Assembly: GCF_000328625.1 (NCBI RefSeq)
Contig: NC_019978.1
Coordinates: 930,001 to 994,000 of the forward strand
DNA length: 64,000 nt
Source of the DNA: Halobacteroides halobius DSM 5150
GTDB lineage: Bacteria > Bacillota > Halanaerobiia > Halobacteroidales > Halobacteroidaceae
Reading direction: 5' to 3'
In this document: piece after piece, positions 5,878-18,587 of the stretch
How positions within the stretch are numbered: the first letter of the stretch is position 1
How the letters are laid out: the number at the start of each line of letters is the position of its first letter
Program-made: the position numbers and the translations under genes
The notes under the pieces: generated by a model
Told to the model about the DNA's origin: nothing
Database searches by the model: none
Seen by the model: only the letters and a program-made list of their open reading frames with translations

Positions 5878-8288
5878 GTTACAAACCTTACTCCGTTAAG
5901 TAGGAGACTGAAAGATGACGGGCCAACTGCTGAAGATGTAGTTGATGACTTCTGTTACAAACCTTACTCCGTTAAGTAGGAGACTGAAAGCACCTAATTC
6001 AACCGTCTTAACGTCGCTATTAGACGTTACAAACCTTACTCCGTTAAGTAGGAGACTGAAAGCTAGCTTGTAATTCTTCTTTGATTATTTGAGTTGTTCC
6101 GTTACAAACCTTACTCCGTTAAGTAGGAGACTGAAAGACTATATCACCTTCGTCTCCCGAAGTTTCAACAAGGTTACAAACCTTACTCCGTTAAGTAGGA
6201 GACTGAAAGTTTAACTATATCAATCGGCTCTTCAAAAGGTGATAATGTTACAAACCTTACTCCGTTAAGTAGGAGACTGAAAGTTATATTATTAATCCAA
6301 TCTAATCTGCAATAATCAGTACGTTACAAACCTTACTCCGTTAAGTAGGAGACTGAAAGATGAACTGACCTATCCAACCTTGCTCGTTAATATATGTTAC
6401 AAACCTTACTCCGTTAAGTAGGAGACTGAAAGTTTATAAAACCACCACCATCATTGGCTTTTTTAAGAGTTACAAACCTTACTCCGTTAAGTAGGAGACT
6501 GAAAGTCAATAGTTAGATAATCTATTGCAGTAGTTACAATAGTTACAAACCTTACTCCGTTAAGTAGGAGACTGAAAGACTCCATAACTATAACCAGATA
6601 AGTCGATATTAAAGTTACAAACCTTACTCCGTTAAGTAGGAGACTGAAAGCCAACTAGAACCAAAGCTATTGTTAATTACGTCAGTCGTTACAAACCTTA
6701 CTCCGTTAAGTAGGAGACTGAAAGGTAAATATTAGGTCTGCATTATCTATATTATTAACTTGTTACAAACCTTACTCCGTTAAGTAGGAGACTGAAAGGA
6801 TATTAGCAATCAATGGATTATAGATAAATCTTTAGGTTACAAACCTTACTCCGTTAAGTAGGAGACTGAAAGGTCTATAAAATTGAATATACTGATTTTA
6901 ATACTAAGTTACAAACCTTACTCCGTTAAGTAGGAGACTGAAAGGCAGCTTGCAGCTCCAACCAATATCTGAGCATTGAAGTTACAAACCTTACTCCGTT
7001 AAGTAGGAGACTGAAAGTTGTTGTTCCTGGAGATCATGATCATAGCTTATGATACGTTACAAACCTTACTCCGTTAAGTAGGAGACTGAAAGGATCCAGT
7101 TGAAGATGACCCTAGTGGACCAGTAGAAGAATAGTTACAAACCTTACTCCGTTAAGTAGGAGACTGAAAGACGCCTGTCAAGGTGCTGAATGTTCGAGGT
7201 GGCAAGATGTTACAAACCTTACTCCGTTAAGTAGGAGACTGAAAGCTGACCTTAGCCCACATACATTACACCTCCTATAGAAGTTACAAACCTTACTCCG
7301 TTAAGTAGGAGACTGAAAGTGTTCATTAACACAAGATACTATTGTAGACAATGGATAGTTACAAACCTTACTCCGTTAAGTAGGAGACTGAAAGATATTC
7401 TACCATTAGTTGTATTGTCAACAGGGTCAGAAGTTACAAACCTTACTCCGTTAAGTAGGAGACTGAAAGACGCTTGAGACGTCGCCTAACTCTACCTCTG
7501 CATTAAGTTACAAACCTTACTCCGTTAAGTAGGAGACTGAAAGATCTACCGAGAAAAAGGACTCAGCAACGATAATTACTTGTTACAAACCTTACTCCGT
7601 TAAGTAGGAGACTGAAAGACTAACTTGTTGCCGATTGAAGGAGAGGCTAATACTGGTTACAAACCTTACTCCGTTAAGTAGGAGACTGAAAGGCAATGCA
7701 GGAGTTAATGAAGTCGCAGGAGTAGTTCAGTTACAAACCTTACTCCGTTAAGTAGGAGACTGAAAGATTCAATCGCCTTACAACAAGCAGTAAGGGATTT
7801 AGATAGTTACAAACCTTACTCCGTTAAGTAGGAGACTGAAAGTATATTTCAGAATTGCATAATCGTACAGCAGAAGAAGGTTACAAACCTTACTCCGTTA
7901 AGTAGGAGACTGAAAGATTGCATTGAAAATATTCTCCCAAATGTAAGTTATAGGTTACAAACCTTACTCCGTTAAGTAGGAGACTGAAAGCAAAAATTGA
8001 TAGTTTCAGCCTAATATGATATAATAAAGTTACAAACCTTACTCCGTTAAGTAGGAGACTGAAAGTTTAATATTAAAAACGGATATGCAATTCAAGTTTT
8101 AGTTACAAACCTTACTCCGTTAAGTAGGAGACTGAAAGACTCACCACCTACCTTATCAGCTAGTTTTAGCAACAAGTTACAAACCTTACTCCGTTAAGTA
8201 GGAGACTGAAAGAGGAAAGTATGCAACTAGTTATAGAACCCCAGTAGATTAGTTACAAACCTTACTCCGTTAAGTAGGAGACTGAAAC
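5878..8288 (+). CRISPR. CRISPR array 1: 33 repeats, 32 spacers
   Basis: The 37-nt repeat begins GTTACAAACCTTACTCC and ends GTAGGAGACTGAAAG; all copies I read carry A at repeat position 13. The hairpin is short (CTCC / GGAG, 8-nt loop), and the 3' end leaves an ACTGAAAG-type 8-nt crRNA handle. Spacers are about 35-40 nt. The leader is on the left. The last repeat (starting 8252) changes its final base (AAAC for AAAG), as expected for a leader-distal terminal repeat. Confidence 0.98.
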
Positions 8289-8372
8289 AGTTTAATAAAA
8301 GAGATAAAGAAAATGATGAACGGGGAGGTTACAGCAACCACTTTAGAGTAATTATAAGTGTTTGTTTTTAAC

Positions 8373-8399
8373 TGTAAATTGTACATTGTAAATTGTCAA
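8373..8399. repeat. Dispersed AT-rich repeat, copy B
   Basis: TGTAAATTGTACATTGT at 8373-8389 is the exact reverse complement of the core of copy A (5375-5394). Array 1 and the small zinc-ribbon gene are therefore bracketed by inverted copies. The surrounding gap 8289-8697 has no supported gene; it holds this repeat, a decayed CRISPR repeat, a terminator and the WYL promoter. Confidence 0.6.
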
Positions 8400-8410
8400 T
8401 TGATTTATTT

Positions 8411-8434
8411 ACTCTGTTAAGTAGGAGACGAAAG
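8411..8434 (+). repeat. Decayed solitary CRISPR repeat
   Basis: ACTCTGTTAAGTAGGAGACG followed by AAAG matches the 3' two thirds of the array 1 repeat with one substitution and one deleted T. It lies 122 nt past the last intact repeat and has no partner repeat. It is probably the eroded distal end of an older, longer array. Confidence 0.75.
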
Positions 8435-8456
8435 AACAAAATATAGGAATAAATGA

Positions 8457-8522: not shown

Positions 8523-8557
8523 ATTCCCACCCAGTTGGGAATGGGATGTGTTATACT
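8523..8557 (+). promoter_or_regulatory. WYL regulator promoter with the shared operator
   Basis: ATTCCCA (8523-8529) and TGGGAAT (8536-8542) with a 6-nt centre are followed, after 9 nt, by the extended -10 TGT-TATACT (-10 at 8552-8557). Arms, centre length and distance to the -10 match the cas1 promoter exactly. The likely ligand is the WYL protein itself (autoregulation). That is inference from proximity. Confidence 0.7.
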
Positions 8558-8697: not shown

Positions 8698-9693
8698 ATG
8701 AGTAATAATTTAAAGGATGATAATTTAAAGAAAATAAGTAAATTGATTAAGTTTATTAATTTGACAGAAACAAAATATGCGACTTATGATCGAGAAGAAT
8801 TAATGGATATCTTAGATATTTCTGAGACTACTTTTTATCGTTATCTGAAACAACTAAATAATGAAGTTGAAGTTCCTATTAAGTATGATAGAAAGACTAA
8901 AGGTTATAAAATTAGACAAGATTACTATATGAAACCCCCTCAATTAACCCTTTCAGAAACGCTTGCTTTAGTAGTTAGTAGCAATAGTATTTTAAATAAT
9001 AGTCAGTTGCCTTATTATGAAGAAACCAATATGGCTATTACCAAGATTATAGCTAGTTTACCTGATAATATGACTGATTTGCTTTCTGGGTTTGAAGATA
9101 AAATTGATTTTAGTTTAAATTCTTTGGTTGATTATGGTGAATGTCGAGATATTTTTAATAAATTAAGGGATGCAATTCAAAATGAAACTAATGTTTGGAT
9201 GCAGTATTATAGCTATAATAAAGATAAGATTAGTGAACGAGTTGTATCACCCTATATTTTAAACTTTAAGAAAGGTTTCTTGTACTTAATTGCTTATTGC
9301 CATAAGAGAAACGATACTAGGATGTTTAGATTAGATAGAATTAAGAAAATGAAGGTTACTAAAGATAAATTTAAATATCCAGATGATTTCTCCTTAAAAG
9401 AATACTTAGGAAATGCCTGGGGCGTAATGAGAAGTGGAGATGATGTTGAAGTTAAGATTAAATTCACTGGTGATATAGCCAGATGGATTAAAGATAATAA
9501 TTATCATCCTACCCAAGAGGTTGAAGAATTAGAAGGTGATAGTGTTTTAATGAGTTTTGTTACCTGTAGTTTAAATGAAGTTAAAGGCTGGGTTATGAAG
9601 TATGGAGCTAATGCAGAGGTGCTTGAGCCACAAAGTTTAAGAGATGAGATTAAAGAAGATATTGAGAGGATGAATCAAGTATACAATAAATAA
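8698..9693 (+). CDS. WYL-domain transcriptional regulator of the cas locus
   Basis: The 331-residue protein has an N-terminal helix-turn-helix (about 10-75; YDREELMDILDISETTFYRYLK) and a WYL-type sensor region with a C-terminal extension (about 145-330; VWMQYYSYNKDKISERVVSPY, then GFLYLIAYCHKRNDTRMFRLDRI). WYL proteins often regulate CRISPR-Cas and other defence operons in response to nucleic acid ligands. The start has GGAGGGAGCTAG just upstream. It stands alone between array 1 and the interference operon. Confidence 0.87.
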   Translation: MSNNLKDDNLKKISKLIKFINLTETKYATYDREELMDILDISETTFYRYLKQLNNEVEVPIKYDRKTKGYKIRQDYYMKPPQLTLSETLALVVSSNSILNNSQLPYYEETNMAITKIIASLPDNMTDLLSGFEDKIDFSLNSLVDYGECRDIFNKLRDAIQNETNVWMQYYSYNKDKISERVVSPYILNFKKGFLYLIAYCHKRNDTRMFRLDRIKKMKVTKDKFKYPDDFSLKEYLGNAWGVMRSGDDVEVKIKFTGDIARWIKDNNYHPTQEVEELEGDSVLMSFVTCSLNEVKGWVMKYGANAEVLEPQSLRDEIKEDIERMNQVYNK

Positions 9694-9726
9694 GAACCAA
9701 TTCATTTTATTATGAACTGATTCTTA
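9691..9726. terminator. Hairpin between the WYL gene and the mini-array
   Basis: Arms 9692-9705 (AAGAACCAATTCAT) and 9712-9725 form a 14-bp stem allowing two wobble pairs, with a 6-nt loop. On the minus strand it is followed by ATTTATT, so it could end the minus-strand mini-array RNA. On the plus strand it closes the WYL transcript but has a poor T tract. Confidence 0.6.
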
Positions 9727-9734
9727 TATTTGAT

Positions 9735-9813
9735 ACTGTCTCCTAGCTAATGGAGATATAAACTTATAATGCATATAACATAATTACAGTCTCCTAATAA
9801 CGGAGTTATTCTA
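9735..9813 (-). ncRNA. Two-repeat degenerate mini-CRISPR, probable cas-regulating RNA (CreR)
   Basis: Read on the minus strand, pseudo-repeat 1 (about 9810-9783) contains ACTCCGTTA and AGGAGACTG as in the array repeats, then TAAT where the repeat has AAAG. Pseudo-repeat 2 (about 9768-9735) keeps the CTCC / GGAG stem with an 8-nt loop. The short spacer begins at 9782 and reads TATGTTATATGCATTAT. It matches the 5' region of the cas3 operon at 9943-9927 with one mismatch in 17. A consensus-like promoter lies directly upstream. Cas6 could process this RNA and load it into Cascade. Identification as CreR is inference from architecture. Confidence 0.8.
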
Positions 9814-9819
9814 AATTAA

Positions 9820-9849
9820 AATATATCATTGTTGAATATATTTTGTCAA
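9820..9849 (-). promoter_or_regulatory. Promoter of the mini-array RNA
   Basis: On the minus strand, TTGACA (9849-9844) is followed after 18 nt by TATATT (9825-9820) with an extended TGA element. The predicted start, about 9813, is at the edge of pseudo-repeat 1, so the RNA would begin almost directly with the repeat. Confidence 0.75.
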
Positions 9850-9877
9850 TAGTTTTGAAAATTATTTTATTATATGG

Positions 9878-9906
9878 TTGACAAAAGCTGGATTAATTAT
9901 TAAAAT
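9878..9906 (+). promoter_or_regulatory. Promoter of the cas3-cas8-cas7-cas5-cas6 operon
   Basis: TTGACA (9878-9883), a 17-nt spacer and TAAAAT (9901-9906) form a strong housekeeping promoter; transcription should start near 9912-9914. A second TATAAT at 9923-9928 has no clear -35. The promoter diverges from that of the mini-array. Confidence 0.75.
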
Positions 9907-9926
9907 TAAGATAAGAAATGATTATA

Positions 9927-9946
9927 ATAATACATATAACATAAGG
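9927..9946 (-). promoter_or_regulatory. Probable target (protospacer) of the mini-array RNA
   Basis: On the minus strand, CCT (9946-9944) is followed by TATGTTATATGTATTAT (9943-9927). The mini-array spacer is identical for its first 11 bases, has one mismatch, then 5 more matches. CCN is a usual PAM of type I-A and several I-B systems. The site lies 14-30 nt after the predicted cas3 operon start, so bound Cascade would be a roadblock. Confidence 0.75.
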
Positions 9947-9973
9947 TTTGAATAATAAAAGGAGGGATGAATC

Positions 9974-12313
9974 ATAGATATTACTAAATATTATTCAAAA
10001 ATTAAAGAGGGGTTTGAGCCTTTTAAATATCAGAGAGAAGTTGCTGAAGCAATATTAAATGGAGAAAATGTTATCTTGCAGGCTCCAACTGGGGCAGGAA
10101 AGACCTTAGCTTCGACTATGCCTTATATAATTGCTAATGAAGAAGGTATGAATTTTCCTAAAAAATTGATTTATTCTACTCCGAGAAGAACTTTAGTGAA
10201 TAGTTTATATTCTGATATTTTAGATGAGATTAAAAAAGGTGATTTTACTAAAGAGTATGATGTTACAATTCAAACGGGAGAGAAAAAAGAAGATAGATAT
10301 TTTAATGGGGATATTATTTTTACTACTTTTGATCAAAGTTTATCGTCAGCTCTAAGTATGCCAATATCATTATCAAACAGATTAGGGAATATCAATGTAG
10401 GAGCATTTCTATCTTCCTATTTAATCTTTGATGAGTTTCACCTCTTTGATTTAAGTGGATCTTATACTACAACTGTATTGTTATTAGAAAAGCTAAAAGA
10501 TAAAGTCCCTTTCTGCGTTATGACAGCTACTATCTCAGAAGAAAAAATAAATGCTTTAGCTGATAAGTTAGATGCTAGAGTAATTAGAGCAGATAGTTCA
10601 GAATATTTAGCAGATATAGTTACTCAACAAGGTAAGGAACGAAGAATTTTTACTAAAGATAATTCTTTAGATGCTGAAGAAATAGTTAAACTGCATAATC
10701 AAATCGAGGGCCAATCTAAAAAGAGTATTGTAATGTGTAATCGAGTAGAGAATGCTCAACAAATATACGAAGATATAAATAAATTAGTTAATAAGGAAGA
10801 TGGAATAGAGACGTTACTTATTCACTCGAGATTTTTAGATGAAGACCGAAAGAGAAAAGAAAAGCAGATAAAGAAATTATTTGCTAAAGATAATGATGAT
10901 AGCAATGTAATTTTAGTAAGTACTCAAGTTATTGAGGTTGGAATAGACATTACTTCTGATATTATGCATACTGAAATTTCTGCTATAGATTCTTTTTTAC
11001 AACGGATTGGAAGATGTGCTAGATATCGTAATCAAACTGGAAAGGTATATGTTTACGATGTGTTAAATGAAGGAGATAATAAATATTTACCTTATGATGA
11101 TGAGGTTACATTAAAGACATTTTCAGCTTTACAGGAAATTGATGGAGAAGTATTAACCTCTGAACTTTCCCAACAAATAATTGATAGAGTTTATAGTGAA
11201 GAAACAGATGTTGATGCTGTAGCTAATGAAAAGGTAGACTGTAGTTCTGATGAATTTATTAAAGAGAGTTGGAAACTTCCTGATAAAGATAGGTTTAATA
11301 ATTTAATCAGAAATGTAATTGCCTGTAGCATAGTAATTTCTCCTTGGGTATATGATAATTGTTCTCCTTATAACTATCAGAGTTTAAGTATTTCACCTGG
11401 GACATTACGAAGTAAAGTAGCAGAAATAGCTAAAGAAACTGATGATTGGTTAGTAAAAAAAGTAATAGAACGTGATGATGATAGTGATTTTAAATATACT
11501 TATGGAGAAACAACCGCTGATGAGATTTATCCTAATAATCTTTATATTTTAAATCCAGATTACTTTGGATATAATTTAGAAACTGGTTTAGTTTTTGATG
11601 GCACAGGTAAAAAGTTTGACCCATTGCCTATATCAAATCAAGAACCTGATTATGATAATACTTATAAAGAAGAAAGTTATTTGCAGCATATTGAAAGTAT
11701 GAACAAGGAAGTACCAGAATTAGAAAGAGAAATGAGTTATGCAATTGAATTGATTAAGGATGAATTTGATTTGAGTGCTGATGATTTTAGAGATATAGTG
11801 GAGTTTACTATTTGGGCCCATGATTTGGGTAAGTTGCAAGAGGAATGGCAGTTGGCCCATAAAAGAGATGAATATGATTTTATAGCCCATGCGGAAAGAA
11901 AAAGCAAACCGCCAAGCCATGCAGCAGAGAGTTTTTGGATTGTATTAGAATTATTAGAAGATTTTATTTTTGATTACTTAGAGAATGAAGGAAAAATAGT
12001 TGATATTATTGGTAAAGCTATGATTTCACATCATTCTTTAAACTTAAATAGAACTGATAAGTATACTATTTCTACAACTGTTAAAAAACATTTATTAAAT
12101 ATAAATGCTGACTTTTTCACAGAGAAAGATTTAACACAATTTATAAATAAAAGAGCAGATAGATTGCTTTTAAGTTTATCAGTTGGAGAGGATATTTCAG
12201 ATGAAATAAGAGTAAGAAGTATTAATCAATATTTATTCTATTTTGTCTTAGTTAGGATCTTAAGATTAGCTGATCAACGAGCAACTAAAAAGTTAAATCA
12301 AGACAATATTTAG
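9974..12313 (+). CDS. cas3: Cas3 helicase-nuclease, helicase N-terminal and HD C-terminal
   Basis: Cas3 is recruited by target-bound Cascade to unwind and degrade DNA. In about 779 residues the order is superfamily 2 helicase first, HD nuclease last. Visible are Walker A PTGAGKT (about 38-44), DEFH (about 153), TAT motif III, QRIGRCAR motif VI (about 343), HDLGK (about 616) and SHHS (about 685). This order is the reverse of the common HD-helicase Cas3. The frame is open from 9971, but no ATG, GTG or TTG precedes TTG 10076, which would cut away sequence leading into Walker A. GGAGGG at 9961-9966 is 7 nt from ATA 9974; ATC 9971 and ATT 9980 are alternatives. First gene of the interference operon. 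Confidence 0.92.
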   Translation: MDITKYYSKIKEGFEPFKYQREVAEAILNGENVILQAPTGAGKTLASTMPYIIANEEGMNFPKKLIYSTPRRTLVNSLYSDILDEIKKGDFTKEYDVTIQTGEKKEDRYFNGDIIFTTFDQSLSSALSMPISLSNRLGNINVGAFLSSYLIFDEFHLFDLSGSYTTTVLLLEKLKDKVPFCVMTATISEEKINALADKLDARVIRADSSEYLADIVTQQGKERRIFTKDNSLDAEEIVKLHNQIEGQSKKSIVMCNRVENAQQIYEDINKLVNKEDGIETLLIHSRFLDEDRKRKEKQIKKLFAKDNDDSNVILVSTQVIEVGIDITSDIMHTEISAIDSFLQRIGRCARYRNQTGKVYVYDVLNEGDNKYLPYDDEVTLKTFSALQEIDGEVLTSELSQQIIDRVYSEETDVDAVANEKVDCSSDEFIKESWKLPDKDRFNNLIRNVIACSIVISPWVYDNCSPYNYQSLSISPGTLRSKVAEIAKETDDWLVKKVIERDDDSDFKYTYGETTADEIYPNNLYILNPDYFGYNLETGLVFDGTGKKFDPLPISNQEPDYDNTYKEESYLQHIESMNKEVPELEREMSYAIELIKDEFDLSADDFRDIVEFTIWAHDLGKLQEEWQLAHKRDEYDFIAHAERKSKPPSHAAESFWIVLELLEDFIFDYLENEGKIVDIIGKAMISHHSLNLNRTDKYTISTTVKKHLLNINADFFTEKDLTQFINKRADRLLLSLSVGEDISDEIRVRSINQYLFYFVLVRILRLADQRATKKLNQDNI

Positions 12314-12327
12314 GAAGGGGTGAATTA

Positions 12328-14196
12328 ATGGAAAAGTTTTTTATTCCTAAATCTGAAGGGGATTATAGTGATATTTTATTATGTAGGGGAGTAGCTGAAA
12401 TTGTTAAACAAGTTTTTAAACAAAATGAAATAGATGATTTGGATATTTTGATTAAAGATGTGGGCTCTTTTTATGTGATTGAACCCGAAGAAGAATTAAA
12501 AGAAGATTATTTTTCAGATTTAAATTTTAGAACTTTATATCCTCTAATTTTTTATGACAAGATGGACCAAAGACCAAATTATACTGAAGATATAGTTGAT
12601 TTCACTACCGATAAGGAATATAAAGATTGGACTGCTGAGGAAAGAAAGTCTGGCCTAATTAGACAAACTACTGGAATCCCGTTATCAAATAAAATAATGA
12701 ATGATTTACATGAGATAAAAGAATATTTTGGAGAGATATTGTTTACAATTTTAGATTTTTTTAGTGAAGTAAGTAGTGATTATAATCAATTAGCAGAAGA
12801 TTTAGATCAATTGTTTACTAAGATAAAGATTAATAAATTTAAGCAAATTGTAAAATCTAAACTTTCTACTGCTGAAGTATTAGAAATAGAAGAAGAATTA
12901 GATCAACTATGTGCAAAATTTGATAATTATCATTGGAGTAAGCGAAATAAAGTAAAGAAGTTAATCAAAAATAAGTTAGATGAATCAGAAACTACACTAG
13001 ATATTACAGAAAATATTAAGGAAATTTATGACCAGGGAAAGATTGATTTTACTAATAGCCATAATGCGTTAAGTAGTCTATTGCCTAAGCGAGTTAAGGG
13101 ATTGAATATAGGTGATCTATCATCTGATTCTAGTATTACTCCTAAAAATTCATCTGAAGATTGGTTCAAATTGTTCTTAATCTTAATTGGATTTTATAAG
13201 TTGTTTATATTTAAGAGATTACAATCTGGGAATAGATTATATTCAGTTATTATTCCTAATCAAGTGCTATTAGATGACTTTGATGATTTATATTATCAAG
13301 TAGAACCTGATTATTATCCAGCTGATACATTAGAAAAACAAAATATTTTGTTTTTAAGTGATTTTGTTATTAAGCTATTAGATAAGTTAGAAGATTTTAA
13401 TACTCGTAGACGTAGGCGACGAAGGACTAGATTGAAGAATTATATTTTAGGATTAAAAAATGCTTATTTAGTAGATATGGGCCAAAATCATGTCATCAAG
13501 AATATTTATGATCTTAACGTTCCTAATTGGATTATTCTGGATGAAGAGAAGGATAAAACAAAGTTTAAAGAAGTTTTTCAAGAATTTATTGATTTGATTA
13601 AGCCGATTGATGATAAAAATGAGGATATAAAACTATTTCAGGAGTTATATAACTTTTTAACAACTGAAAGAGTTGATTATTTATTAAATTATTATTACCA
13701 ACATGCAATTTTAGCAATGCAAAGATTGGGTAACGATCAAGGAGCAAAAATATATACCAAGCGAGGTGTTAAATTTATTATGAGTAAATTAGATAATGTT
13801 ACTGATAAGAATTATTCATCTATTTTAGAAAATGAAGGATTTAAAAGTTTTGCTAAAGCAATTAGAAATAGTACGTTAGTTCCCATTTATCACAATGATA
13901 AGAAGAAGATTAAATTTGGTTTATTACAGGAATTAAGACGAGCTGCTCTCAATAAAGATACATTAATTACTAAGTTATCAGAGTTTATGGCAGATTATAA
14001 TAATGAAAATGGATTAGAGAATTTTCATAATAATAATCCTATGAGATCTAATTTAACAACTGGTGATTTTGAAGAAATTGTAAGTCTGATTGATAAGCAT
14101 GATTCTAAAATTATTGGGAATATGCTATTAGCTTATGGATTTGGTAAAGATGAAAAAGTAAAAGAAGTTAAAGAGGAGGCAGATAATAATGAGTAA
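12328..14196 (+). CDS. cas8: Cascade large subunit, Cas8-like
   Basis: The 622-residue, acidic, Asp/Glu/Lys/Leu-rich protein has no recognisable catalytic motif. Its place between cas3 and a DevR-type cas7 is where type I loci encode the large subunit that reads the PAM. A run of arginines (FNTRRRRRRRTRLKN, about 355-370) could contact nucleic acid. I cannot assign the Cas8 subfamily by eye; Cas8a1/Csx13 (DevT) is plausible given the DevR-like Cas7. GAAGGGGTG precedes ATG 12328. It overlaps cas7 by 8 nt. No separate small subunit gene is present. Confidence 0.72.
   Translation: MEKFFIPKSEGDYSDILLCRGVAEIVKQVFKQNEIDDLDILIKDVGSFYVIEPEEELKEDYFSDLNFRTLYPLIFYDKMDQRPNYTEDIVDFTTDKEYKDWTAEERKSGLIRQTTGIPLSNKIMNDLHEIKEYFGEILFTILDFFSEVSSDYNQLAEDLDQLFTKIKINKFKQIVKSKLSTAEVLEIEEELDQLCAKFDNYHWSKRNKVKKLIKNKLDESETTLDITENIKEIYDQGKIDFTNSHNALSSLLPKRVKGLNIGDLSSDSSITPKNSSEDWFKLFLILIGFYKLFIFKRLQSGNRLYSVIIPNQVLLDDFDDLYYQVEPDYYPADTLEKQNILFLSDFVIKLLDKLEDFNTRRRRRRRTRLKNYILGLKNAYLVDMGQNHVIKNIYDLNVPNWIILDEEKDKTKFKEVFQEFIDLIKPIDDKNEDIKLFQELYNFLTTERVDYLLNYYYQHAILAMQRLGNDQGAKIYTKRGVKFIMSKLDNVTDKNYSSILENEGFKSFAKAIRNSTLVPIYHNDKKKIKFGLLQELRRAALNKDTLITKLSEFMADYNNENGLENFHNNNPMRSNLTTGDFEEIVSLIDKHDSKIIGNMLLAYGFGKDEKVKEVKEEADNNE
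13780..14196 (+). CDS. Possible internally initiated small subunit (Cas11) within cas8
   Basis: An in-frame ATG at 13780 is preceded by GCGAGGTG (13761-13768, 11-nt spacing). Initiation here would yield a 138-residue product covering the C-terminal region of Cas8. It looks largely helical (FKSFAKAIRNS, LLQELRRAALNKD, EEIVSLIDKH). Internal translation of Cas11 is established for Cas8 or Cas10d genes of subtypes I-B, I-C and I-D, and this locus lacks csa5. Spacing and strength of the ribosome site are only fair. Confidence 0.4.
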   Translation: MSKLDNVTDKNYSSILENEGFKSFAKAIRNSTLVPIYHNDKKKIKFGLLQELRRAALNKDTLITKLSEFMADYNNENGLENFHNNNPMRSNLTTGDFEEIVSLIDKHDSKIIGNMLLAYGFGKDEKVKEVKEEADNNE

Positions 14197-15148
14197 AGAA
14201 GTTTATTCTATTTCTATTAATGGTAAAGTAGGTTTGAATTTGCATGATCTAAATAATGAAAAGTCAGAAGGAAATCAGTTAACAACGAGGAATGTAACTA
14301 TTACTGATGGCGCAGGAAAACTAGCTACAGTCAATGCTGTATCAGGTGATATGTTAAAGCATATTCAATCTAGTCATCTTTATAAAACTGCTAAAGAAAA
14401 TGAAGATTTACCATTATGTCAAGGATGCGAAAAATTTGATGCTAATCGAATCACAATTGATGATGATTTTGATGAGTTTACTAAGGATTCAGATAATACT
14501 AAAACTGATATTGTAGATGAAATGTTAAGTAGATGTGTTTTGGATGATATGGAAGGTATCTTAGTTACAAATAATAAAAAGAATGTGGGGCGAGATTCTA
14601 CTGTAGAATTTGGTTGGTTAGTAGCTATCCCAGAAGAATTTAATTCAGAGAACCTATTCCATGTTAAATATTCTGATTTGGAAAAAAGCGAAGGTAGTGG
14701 CAAAAACGAAGGACAGAATATCTTTTATCGTCCGGTTAATTCGGGCCAATATGCTGTAGTTAATAATCTTGAAATCTCAAGAATTGGTTATAATGATATT
14801 TCTAAAGAATATGCACTAGATAAAGAAGATATTGAGACAAGATACAAAGCATTATTGAAATCGATTATGTTAACTTATTATTCTCCTGAAGGAGCAATGA
14901 GAAATACTCAAGCACCTCATATGACAAGCTTTGAAGGGGTAGTTAGTATTAGTTATAGTTCAGTTCCAGCTCCTACAGTTAGTGCTTTAAATCCAGATTA
15001 TAGTCAACAGATTGAATCTATTACTGAAACTTTAAATGGAATAGGAGAGAAAGTAGAATTAAAAGAGTTCGAATCTATAGCAGAATTTTGTAATATAATT
15101 AAGGAACTTATTGATAATACAGCTCCTTATGGTGCTAAAGAGGAGTAA
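14189..15148 (+). CDS. cas7: Cas7 backbone subunit, DevR/Cst2 family
   Basis: The 319-residue protein opens with SISINGKVGLNLHDLNNEKS, then EGNQLTTRNVTI, NAVSGDMLKHIQSSHLY and LPLCQGCEKFDANRI. These are characteristic of the DevR-type Cas7 family (the 'autoregulator' family of Myxococcus dev). Cas7 polymerises along the crRNA. The C-terminal part has the usual glycine-poor RAMP-like segment (MTSFEGVVSISYSSVPAP). The ATG overlaps the cas8 stop by 8 nt, so the two are translationally coupled. Confidence 0.9.
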   Translation: MSKEVYSISINGKVGLNLHDLNNEKSEGNQLTTRNVTITDGAGKLATVNAVSGDMLKHIQSSHLYKTAKENEDLPLCQGCEKFDANRITIDDDFDEFTKDSDNTKTDIVDEMLSRCVLDDMEGILVTNNKKNVGRDSTVEFGWLVAIPEEFNSENLFHVKYSDLEKSEGSGKNEGQNIFYRPVNSGQYAVVNNLEISRIGYNDISKEYALDKEDIETRYKALLKSIMLTYYSPEGAMRNTQAPHMTSFEGVVSISYSSVPAPTVSALNPDYSQQIESITETLNGIGEKVELKEFESIAEFCNIIKELIDNTAPYGAKEE

Positions 15149-15160
15149 GGAGGGGTTGTT

Positions 15161-15841
15161 GTGTGGTTAGAAATTGAATATTCACCTACTTCATTATTTT
15201 CCTTTAAAGATATTAATGCTACTAATACTGCTGCCACGTCTCTTTTATTTCCGACTCCATTTGGAGTTAAGATGGCTATAATTTCGGAAGCAATTCAGAA
15301 GTATGATTTAGCTAAGGGAGAAGAAGTATTTAAATTAATCAAGGATAAAAAGATTAGATTTAATATTCCTAAAGAAGCAGTGGTTAATAAAACTTTTGGG
15401 AGAATAACTGATTTAAGAAATAAAGTAGGTAGGTCTAAACCTGCTTATAGAGAATATGTATTTTTTAACGGTGAACTGAAAATAGCAATAGACGCTGAAG
15501 AGTTATCTAAGGAAGAAATAAATCTACTAAAAAGATTATTTGTAAGAGTTAATTATTTTGGTAAACGAGCTTCATTTATGCAGTTTAAATCTTTTAATGA
15601 GACAAAAGAATTAGGTAATGGTTATTTACAATTAATGGGAGAAGAAGATGTTCAGTTAGCTAATAAATCTATTATCCAGCTTACTGAAGATATTCCTCCA
15701 GAGGCTACTTTTGCAGAAATTAATATATATAATAGTGAGGAAAAATTAAAAAGAAAGAATAATAAAAGAATATTTACAGTCAATTTAGAAGAAACACTAT
15801 CAGGTGAAGGATATCAATATTACAAGATAGCTAATAGTTAA
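15161..15841 (+). CDS. cas5: Cas5 subunit of Cascade
   Basis: The 226-residue protein begins WLEIEYSPTSLFSFKDINATNT, then LLFPTPFGVKMAII, the N-terminal RAMP pattern of Cas5. Cas5 caps the 5' handle of the crRNA and joins Cas7 to the large subunit. The start is GTG 15161 after AAGGAGGGGTTGTT. The gene is 12 nt after cas7 and 13 nt before cas6. Confidence 0.85.
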   Translation: MWLEIEYSPTSLFSFKDINATNTAATSLLFPTPFGVKMAIISEAIQKYDLAKGEEVFKLIKDKKIRFNIPKEAVVNKTFGRITDLRNKVGRSKPAYREYVFFNGELKIAIDAEELSKEEINLLKRLFVRVNYFGKRASFMQFKSFNETKELGNGYLQLMGEEDVQLANKSIIQLTEDIPPEATFAEINIYNSEEKLKRKNNKRIFTVNLEETLSGEGYQYYKIANS

Positions 15842-15854
15842 ATGGAGGGTTAGT

Positions 15855-16811
15855 ATGGAATTAGAAATAATGAGTTTGAAATTTACTTTAGTAGCAGAAG
15901 ATACAATAAAGTTGCCTCAGCATCCTGGTTCAACATTCCGGGGTGCTTTTGGGCATGGCTTACGAGAGATAGCTTGTAATATAGAGGAGACAAAATGTAA
16001 AGAGTGTGATTTAAAGAGTAGTTGTGCTTATTCATTATTATTTAATCCATTTTTAGTAGGTAAAGAAAAGTTTAGAAATTCTAAGCGTTTTAAAGATAAG
16101 CCACGTCCATTTGTTTTCAAACCTTTAACTAATAGAAAAGAGGTTTTTAGAGAAGGTGAGCAGATAGAGTTTAAATTAAATTTATTTGGTTATCTTGATA
16201 GATTTTTGCCTTATATTATTAAAGCATGGAAGTATTTAGAAAACCAAGGAATTGGCATTGGAAGAGGTAAATTTGTTTTATCAGAAGTTTGGAATCTAAA
16301 TCAAGTTGCAGGTAAGCAAGAGCGAGTATATTCTAAGGATTTTGGTTTTAATCAGATGACAGAAGCTAAAATTACCAAGGAAGATGTTAAGCAGTTTCAA
16401 AATATTTTTACATCCAATAGTATATGTTTGAAATTGGTTACTCCAACATTACTTAAATATAAAGGAGAATTTGTTGATAAGATAGAATTTCATACATTAA
16501 TGAGAAATTTATTTAGAAGGTTAACTAGTTTAAGTTTGTTTTATGGTGAAGAACAGCTTGATATTGACTTTGGTTCTTATCTTGATCAAGCTGAAGAAAT
16601 TGAATTAGTTAAAGATAATACTAGTTGGCAGAGTTGGGAGCGTTACTCTAATCGTCAAAATAAAAGGATAAAAATGAAAGGTTTAGTAGGAGAAGTAGAA
16701 TATAAAGGTAACTTAGAAAAATTTTTATCTTATTTGATATTAGGCCAATATGTTAATGTAGGTAAGAATACTGTTTTTGGATTAGGGAATTATAAATTAA
16801 TAAAGAATTAG
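15855..16811 (+). CDS. cas6: Cas6 pre-crRNA endoribonuclease
   Basis: The 318-residue RAMP protein has PGSTFRGAFGHGLREIAC, a four-cysteine stretch (CKECDLKSSC) and LFNPF near the N-terminus. It also has the GIGIGRGKF loop and a C-terminal GLVGEVEYKGNLEKFLSYLILGQ followed by VGKNTVFGLGNY, all matching the PF10040-type Cas6 of clostridial and archaeal systems. Cas6 cuts each repeat 8 nt upstream of the spacer. It would process both arrays and, by the same logic, the mini-array RNA. Last gene of the operon. Confidence 0.9.
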   Translation: MELEIMSLKFTLVAEDTIKLPQHPGSTFRGAFGHGLREIACNIEETKCKECDLKSSCAYSLLFNPFLVGKEKFRNSKRFKDKPRPFVFKPLTNRKEVFREGEQIEFKLNLFGYLDRFLPYIIKAWKYLENQGIGIGRGKFVLSEVWNLNQVAGKQERVYSKDFGFNQMTEAKITKEDVKQFQNIFTSNSICLKLVTPTLLKYKGEFVDKIEFHTLMRNLFRRLTSLSLFYGEEQLDIDFGSYLDQAEEIELVKDNTSWQSWERYSNRQNKRIKMKGLVGEVEYKGNLEKFLSYLILGQYVNVGKNTVFGLGNYKLIKN

Positions 16812-17121: not shown

Positions 17122-18433
17122 GTTACAAACCTTGCTCCGTTAAGTAGGAGACTGAAAGCTAGATGAGCGGATGGGGAGTACAATCAGACATAAGTTACAA
17201 ACCTTGCTCCGTTAAGTAGGAGACTGAAAGTACGGCGATGATCAAAAGAATGGGTTAGATCAATTTCGTTACAAACCTTGCTCCGTTAAGTAGGAGACTG
17301 AAAGCCTGTTTCCTTGACTTGTAATGTTAGTTTTCTGCCGTCGTTACAAACCTTGCTCCGTTAAGTAGGAGACTGAAAGCCTACATAACATTATATATAA
17401 AATTACCGTTTTTTTAATGTTACAAACCTTGCTCCGTTAAGTAGGAGACTGAAAGGTACAGGAGTGGCGATCAGAACAGACGAAAGCCTTAACGTTACAA
17501 ACCTTGCTCCGTTAAGTAGGAGACTGAAAGCAATTCTCATTCCAAGCTTTGTAAGCCATAGCTGCTACGTTACAAACCTTGCTCCGTTAAGTAGGAGACT
17601 GAAAGACGACAGGGGATGAGTGATAGAAATATTAGTATAGTTGGTTACAAACCTTGCTCCGTTAAGTAGGAGACTGAAAGAATAAGTGATGAAATAAGTG
17701 TGACAGCTGGCAAGAGTTACAAACCTTGCTCCGTTAAGTAGGAGACTGAAAGGGTTACTTAACATGGGAAGCTCAACTTAATGCTAACTGTTACAAACCT
17801 TGCTCCGTTAAGTAGGAGACTGAAAGCGGAATCAGAATAGCAGTTGGAACCAGTTTGACGTAGACGGTTACAAACCTTGCTCCGTTAAGTAGGAGACTGA
17901 AAGGCCATTAGAAAGACAGGAAGTTATTCAGTAGACAATCAAGAGTTACAAACCTTGCTCCGTTAAGTAGGAGACTGAAAGTCTTTTTATTCTCCAGCTC
18001 TAATTTTTGCTTTTCTTCTGTTACAAACCTTGCTCCGTTAAGTAGGAGACTGAAAGATTTATTATTAGGATTTTTTCGTTCGATTAAGTAGCCGTTACAA
18101 ACCTTGCTCCGTTAAGTAGGAGACTGAAAGACTATTGCTTTAAGCTCCGGTTTGATTTTTTTAAACTTTGTTACAAACCTTGCTCCGTTAAGTAGGAGAC
18201 TGAAAGCACATTAAGAGTCGTGCTCCATCATTAGTCAAAGCACCTTGTTACAAACCTTGCTCCGTTAAGTAGGAGACTGAAAGCTAATTCTTCCTTAGCA
18301 AACTTCTGTAGGTCTAACTCTGTTACAAACCTTGCTCCGTTAAGTAGGAGACTGAAAGCTAATTCTTCCTTAGCAAACTTCTGTAGGTCTAACTCTGTTA
18401 CAAACCTTGCTCCGTTAAGTAGGAGACTGAAAG
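17122..18433 (+). CRISPR. CRISPR array 2: 18 repeats, 17 spacers
   Basis: The repeat is 37 nt and identical to array 1 except for G instead of A at position 13 (CCTTGCTCC). All 18 copies I read have the G. The last two spacers (18284-18321 and 18359-18396) are identical. Spacers are 35-40 nt. The leader is on the left. The array ends 154 nt before miaB. Confidence 0.98.
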
Positions 18434-18587
18434 ATATAAGTTAAGTTACAAGCTTATTTATTAAAGCTAAAGCGTATAAAATAAGATAGTTTTGCAATGT
18501 TATCTTTCTATGGTATAATATTATTTAGGCTAAAACAAATAATAAACTTGAGTTTATATAGATGATAGGATAAAAGGAGCGATACAT

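Follow-up and report, generated by a model that had tools for sequence, protein, structure and literature searches.

A putative cas-regulating mini-CRISPR opposite to the cas3 operon of Halobacteroides halobius, with WYL-linked counterparts in related genomes

The minus strand at positions 9732-9849 of the window (the whole 64,000-nucleotide stretch of Halobacteroides halobius DNA that was analysed) most probably encodes a cas-regulating RNA (CreR), in the form of a stand-alone mini-CRISPR that lies opposite to the cas operon and would repress it, a reading to which we assign a probability of about 0.88. The unit fits a CreR because of the covariation between guide and promoter, the mismatches at guide positions 6 and 12, the compensatory changes in the repeat stem, and the absence of the unit where the gap between the WYL gene and the cas genes is short or lacking.

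The host locus and the anatomy of the mini-array

The genome of H. halobius is a single contig of 2,649,255 bp, in which the genes of the CRISPR-Cas locus follow the order cas1-cas2-cas4-csa1, array 1, the WYL gene, cas3-cas8-cas7-cas5-cas6, and array 2. The original prediction referred to a DevR-type system with a WYL regulator; the WYL gene is present, but the type is better given as subtype I-A, based on Cas8a, Cas5a, Cas7a (Cas7/Csa2), and a Csa1-type Cas4 (Cas4a), as recognized by PADLOC and NCBIfam. The main features of the locus are:

5878-8435, plus strand: CRISPR array 1, repeat GTTACAAACCTTACTCCGTTAAGTAGGAGACTGAAAG
8698-9693, plus strand: gene of a WYL-domain transcription regulator (Pfam WYL 4.4e-23, WCX 7.8e-19), the upstream neighbour of the mini-array
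9971-12313, plus strand: cas3 (helicase with HD at the C-terminus), the leading gene of the operon presumed to be regulated, start codon uncertain
12328-14196, plus strand: cas8a (PADLOC Cas8a 6.5e-28)
14189-15148, plus strand: cas7 (DevR/Csa2)
15161-15841, plus strand: cas5a (PADLOC Cas5a 4.6e-87)
15855-16811, plus strand: cas6, presumed processing enzyme for the arrays and the mini-array
17122-18435, plus strand: CRISPR array 2

The final spacer of array 2 is present twice (18284-18396; CTAATTCTTCCTTAGCAAACTTCTGTAGGTCTAACTCT). At the beginning of cas3 (9960-9980), there is no in-frame ATG, GTG, or TTG near the Shine-Dalgarno sequence AGGAGGG, the ATG at 9967 is out of frame (MNHRYY*), and the candidate starts are ATC at 9971, ATA at 9974, ATT at 9980, or a frame shift; the cas3 of Halanaerobium sp. 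MA284 is likewise without a well-spaced ATG.

Two degenerate minus-strand repeats were predicted to flank a short spacer between the WYL gene and cas3, and all of these elements are found there, including the CTCC/GGAG stem with its 8-nt loop in pseudo-repeat 2, and the promoter upstream of pseudo-repeat 1, which recurs in Natroniella sulfidigena, where neither the hexamers nor their spacing differ. From the end of the WYL gene to the cas3 leader, the features are:

9692-9725, no strand assigned: inverted repeat (9692-9705 and 9712-9725), read from the letters, a terminator that the WYL gene and the minus-strand RNA may share
9732-9755, minus strand: pseudo-repeat 2 (psiR2, the 3' repeat), CTCCATTAGCTAGGAGACAGTATC
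9756-9782, minus strand: guide (pseudo-spacer), TATGTTATATGCATTAT, read from 9782 downward
9783-9806, minus strand: pseudo-repeat 1 (psiR1), ACTCCGTTATTAGGAGACTGTAAT, scoring 20/27 against the array repeat, with one loop base missing
9783-9790, minus strand: 8-nt 5' handle of pseudo-repeat 1, ACTGTAAT / ACUGUAAU
9820-9849, minus strand: predicted promoter of the minus-strand RNA, TTGACA-18-TATATT with TG before the -10 (extended -10), score 11/12
9878-9928, plus strand: predicted cas3 operon promoter region, with TTGACA-17-TAAAAT (9878-9906) and TTAAAA-17-TATAAT (9900-9928)
9927-9943, minus strand: protospacer TATGTTATATGTATTAT in the cas3 leader, 16/17, mismatch at 12
9944-9946, minus strand: PAM CCT, adjoining the protospacer

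A strict terminator scan made no call at the inverted repeat, and no Rfam family reached its gathering score in the locus. At one mismatch or fewer, CTCCNNTNNNTAGGAGACNG occurs genome-wide in the two plus-strand arrays and in a single minus-strand copy at 9736-9755, within pseudo-repeat 2. As in a CreR, the unit is a stand-alone mini-array of degenerate repeats near the cas operon. From the handle to the next stem, the guide measures 27 nt, versus about 50 nt in the arrays of H. halobius, whose spacers are 35-41 nt long. Classification as a canonical CRISPR array was rejected, given that the repeats are diverged and the guide is 27 nt in length, rather than near-identical repeats with full-length spacers.

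Across nine pseudo-repeats and three array repeats, 97.9% of the base pairs of the 4-bp stem are kept, three of the four pairs show two-sided (compensatory) changes, and neither the percentage paired nor the covariation score was reached by any of 500 shuffles. In the predicted fold of the H. halobius RNA, the two pseudo-repeats pair with one another and form no separate hairpins, which counts against the CreR reading.

Guide, target, and promoters in H. halobius

The predicted pairing of 11 seed bases, one mismatch, and five matches is confirmed at 9943-9927 of the minus strand, where guide positions 1-11 and 13-17 pair with the target, position 12 is mismatched, and the sequences then diverge. 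A genome-wide search with the pattern of CCN plus the guide recovers exactly one perfect site in 2.65 Mb, all of the others having three mismatches, with the sole exception of the guide itself (two mismatches, no PAM). The observed match was reached by none of 5000 dinucleotide shuffles of the H. halobius gap. The guide is complementary, through seed positions 1-5 and 7-11, to the promoter region of its cognate cas operon, with a PAM adjoining, and this complementarity is partial (16/17 followed by divergence, judged from the sequence, with the 35-41 nt array spacers for comparison), both of which are characteristic of a CreR. The suggestion that CCT is a plausible type I PAM is in keeping with the occurrence of CCT at 9946-9944, and of CCT or CCA in four relatives. 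The search for a PAM through the immune spacers of the H. halobius arrays, compared with a phage collection, gave only chance-level matches, which counts against the CreR reading.

The start site of the cas3 operon is less certain, with two promoter candidates, of which the relatives appear to favour the TATAAT one. As the relatives place the guide target directly after TATAAT, the target in H. halobius may overlap the -10/start region, rather than lying at +14 to +30. The distance of 14-30 nt originally given between the start of the operon and the target is uncertain, given the two candidate promoters. In H. halobius, Natroniella, MA284, and three further relatives (G009, G029, and G038), about 27-50 nt separate the target from the site where the first cas gene presumably starts.

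In the mechanism proposed here, the minus-strand RNA would be transcribed from the TTGACA-18-TATATT promoter, and Cas6 would cut the two degenerate repeats to release a short crRNA-like RNA, which would be taken up by the subtype I-A Cascade that also carries the immune crRNAs. Guided by the CCT PAM and about 16 paired bases (1-11 and 13-17), Cascade would sit on the cas3 promoter or leader, and may block transcription without triggering cutting. This would provide a negative feedback, relaxed whenever crRNAs or anti-CRISPRs draw Cascade away.

Mini-arrays and guide-target covariation in related genomes

A search with cas3 showed this effector operon in five further genomes, and the same slot is filled in Natroniella sulfidigena and Halanaerobium sp. 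MA284. A survey in which the array copies were masked added G005 and G009, and a further survey of the Halanaerobiales cas loci, together with a reading of the WYL-cas gaps, added G029 (L158) and G038, which belong to the same family as MA284 and form a near-identical pair that is not independent. The search criterion that found G005, G009, and G029 allowed any base at positions 6, 12, and 18; G038 was recognized through its likeness to G029; H. halobius was not chosen by a criterion of this type. The survey covers the loci fetched for comparison, which are a subset of genomes.

Within this scope, seven genomes (H. halobius and six relatives) have, in the gap that separates the WYL gene from the effector operon, a unit on the opposite strand; a relative of the WYL gene adjoins the mini-array in all six related genomes. 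The effectors of these loci belong to subtypes I-A (three loci), I-D (G005, with Cas10d at 1e-50 and Cas5d at 2e-40), and I-B (G009, with Cas8b at 1.2e-27, and G029 and G038, with Cas8b at about 1e-156).

No mini-array was seen in the WYL loci in which the WYL-cas gap is at most 166 nt or lacking, with gaps of this size in H. jeridensis, the Soudan MAG, G006, G012, G025, G028, G030, G035, G037, G041, G045, G046, and G053. A mini-array-like remnant is kept in G032, which has no cas3 match. Among 12 stretches from the same phylum that hold more distant relatives of Cas8a (24-31% identical), the eight with a usable array have no comparable mini-array within 600 nt, and the other four have no detectable array. 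Besides G029, the Halanaerobiales cas loci returned AT-rich background matches only. The G010 stretch (L132) has a WYL gene and an array of the same repeat family, with a csa1/cas4-like sequence recognized by eye, and no effector operon within the stretch read.

The guides covary with their targets. Self matches, of a guide on its own leader, amount to 13-16, and cross matches to 2-8, with two exceptions, these being the AT-rich MA284 guide on the G009 region (10) and the near-identical G029 and G038 (13). As in H. halobius, none of 5000 shuffles reached the observed match in Natroniella, G005, or G009, one did so in each of G029 and G038, and 24 in MA284. Positions 6 and 12 are the unpaired positions of type I guides. 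An ungapped search for the best 13-nt match with no preset mismatch positions, which was run afterwards on loci already chosen, places the mismatches at position 12 in H. halobius and at positions 6 and 12 in G005, G009, G029, and G038, and the runner-up matches have four or more mismatches. In the CreA of H. hubeiense, it was shown experimentally that seed positions 1-5 and 7-11 are needed, and that positions 6 and 12 are dispensable (PMC8501985).

The matches in Natroniella and MA284, both of subtype I-A, require a 1-nt bulge, with an extra guide base at position 5/6; the bulged match is strong in Natroniella and, in MA284 taken alone, weakly above chance, and these bulges count against the CreR reading. 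The matches begin with the base that follows the 8-nt handle. Five loci have CCT or CCA as their PAM, and G029 and G038, whose repeat is different, have TTA; the target of G005 is on the other strand. Among the seven genomes with a mini-array in the WYL-cas gap, the comparison of relatives suggested in the original prediction yields no case in which pseudo-repeats persist without the promoter match, each guide matching its own cas leader; the matches vanish between unrelated loci, and the mismatches fall at 6 and 12, as in CreA/Cascade (PMC8501985). On this evidence, the CreR-type autoregulation that had been proposed appears well founded.

Alternative explanations, known systems, and significance

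The matching sequences might instead be two operators bound by the WYL protein or by some other regulator that recognizes DNA, with the likeness of guide and target being incidental. In favour of this, a WYL gene adjoins the unit in each of the seven loci, and the two sequences form a direct repeat on the plus strand of H. halobius. These sequences vary by species, however, even though the WYL protein of H. halobius shares 55-64% identity with its counterparts in Natroniella, G005, and G009. The matches start at the handle, leave out positions 6 and 12, and in five loci adjoin CCT or CCA; the palindrome ATTCCCA-N6-TGGGAAT upstream of cas1 and the WYL gene is, in addition, a better operator candidate. 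An operator pair is very unlikely, then, because the sequences diverge while the handle, the PAM, and the rules for positions 6 and 12 stay. The palindrome or its near variants are located at 2520-2537 (upstream of cas1) and 8524-8541 (upstream of the WYL gene), and also at L063 4156 and L062 15284, and were not found in the cas3 leader. In Halanaerobium relatives (L137, L138, L139, L140, L144, and L145), a GCGACA...TGTCGC-like palindrome followed by GATGGTAAGAT lies just after the WYL gene, and is possibly another WYL operator with a promoter.

An antitoxin of the CreTA/CrePA type, whose guide would repress a toxin gene lying immediately beyond the target, could be suspected from the mini-ORF MNHRYY (strong Shine-Dalgarno, AGA codon) that overlaps the cas3 start in H. 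halobius, and from a small ORF between the target and cas3 in G005. The stretch of the mini-ORF nevertheless corresponds to the cas3 N-terminus of the relatives, the mini-ORF is not seen in Natroniella or MA284, and the G005 ORF (L113 2800-3064) is a transposase HTH (PF01527, 4.7e-7). In H. halobius, the target directly precedes cas3, and no toxin candidate is conserved among the relatives, which is consistent with a CreR; no toxin gene was found under the targeted promoter, and the assignment to CreTA/CrePA was rejected. As the targeted leader runs directly into the cas genes in six of the seven loci (at the short distances given above), and the G005 ORF is a transposase HTH, a toxin-antitoxin pair is more improbable still. 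The least probable alternative is an older CRISPR array in decay, whose match to the leader would be a coincidence. The degenerate repeats and the short guide speak for it, but the unit is on the strand opposite to the nearby H. halobius arrays, has a promoter of its own whose hexamers recur in Natroniella, and shows compensatory stem changes, and the shared syntenic slot in seven genomes, with guide-target covariation, points to a maintained function.

The preferred reading, a CreR, has several parallels. In type II-A systems, tracr-L is a natural single guide through which Cas9 represses its own promoter; the RNA proposed for H. halobius would likewise be a natural guide RNA used for autorepression by the effector, although tracr-L is class 2 and tracrRNA-derived, with no mini-array. 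CreRs, reportedly the subject of work by Liu et al. in Cell Host Microbe in 2023 (cited in PMC12737573, summarized in PMC13131331), are said to be crRNA-like RNAs through which the Cas effector represses the operon that encodes it. They act in subtypes I-B, I-E, and V-A through partial promoter complementarity (reviews PMC13131331, PMC12737573). The present units resemble them, as judged from the sequence, in the putative crRNA-like guide with limited complementarity to the cognate cas promoter and in the absence of a toxin gene, but differ in subtype (I-A in three loci, I-D in one, and I-B in three, versus I-B, I-E, and V-A; PMC13131331), in their constant position beside a WYL gene on the opposite strand, and in the bulge at position 5/6 of two I-A guides. 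The CreA of H. hubeiense CreTA is similar in its guide flanked by two divergent degenerate repeats, its seed of 1-5 and 7-11 with positions 6 and 12 free, and the PAM that adjoins its target, but CreA targets a toxin gene in a I-B system, whereas the H. halobius target is the cas operon of a I-A system, with no conserved toxin mini-ORF (PMC8501985). No report of a CreR in I-A or I-D was found in the literature consulted, which for CreR consisted of reviews.

More tentatively, and with somewhat greater doubt than confidence, the WYL-linked mini-CRISPR slot may persist across effector subtypes (I-A, I-B, and I-D), with the guide being rewritten to follow the downstream effector promoter, and some I-A guides using the extra base at the flipped-out position 6 to weaken binding. 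The bulged guides raise the question of whether Cascade can cope with a target that lacks a base at position 6, and the seven loci represent a natural covariation experiment that supports the 6-nt periodicity of the seed. The presence of a WYL regulator and a putative CreR in one locus offers a testable case of two-layer control of the adaptation and effector genes. Should the repression be confirmed, subtypes I-A and I-D would join I-B, I-E, and V-A as systems with RNA-guided autorepression.
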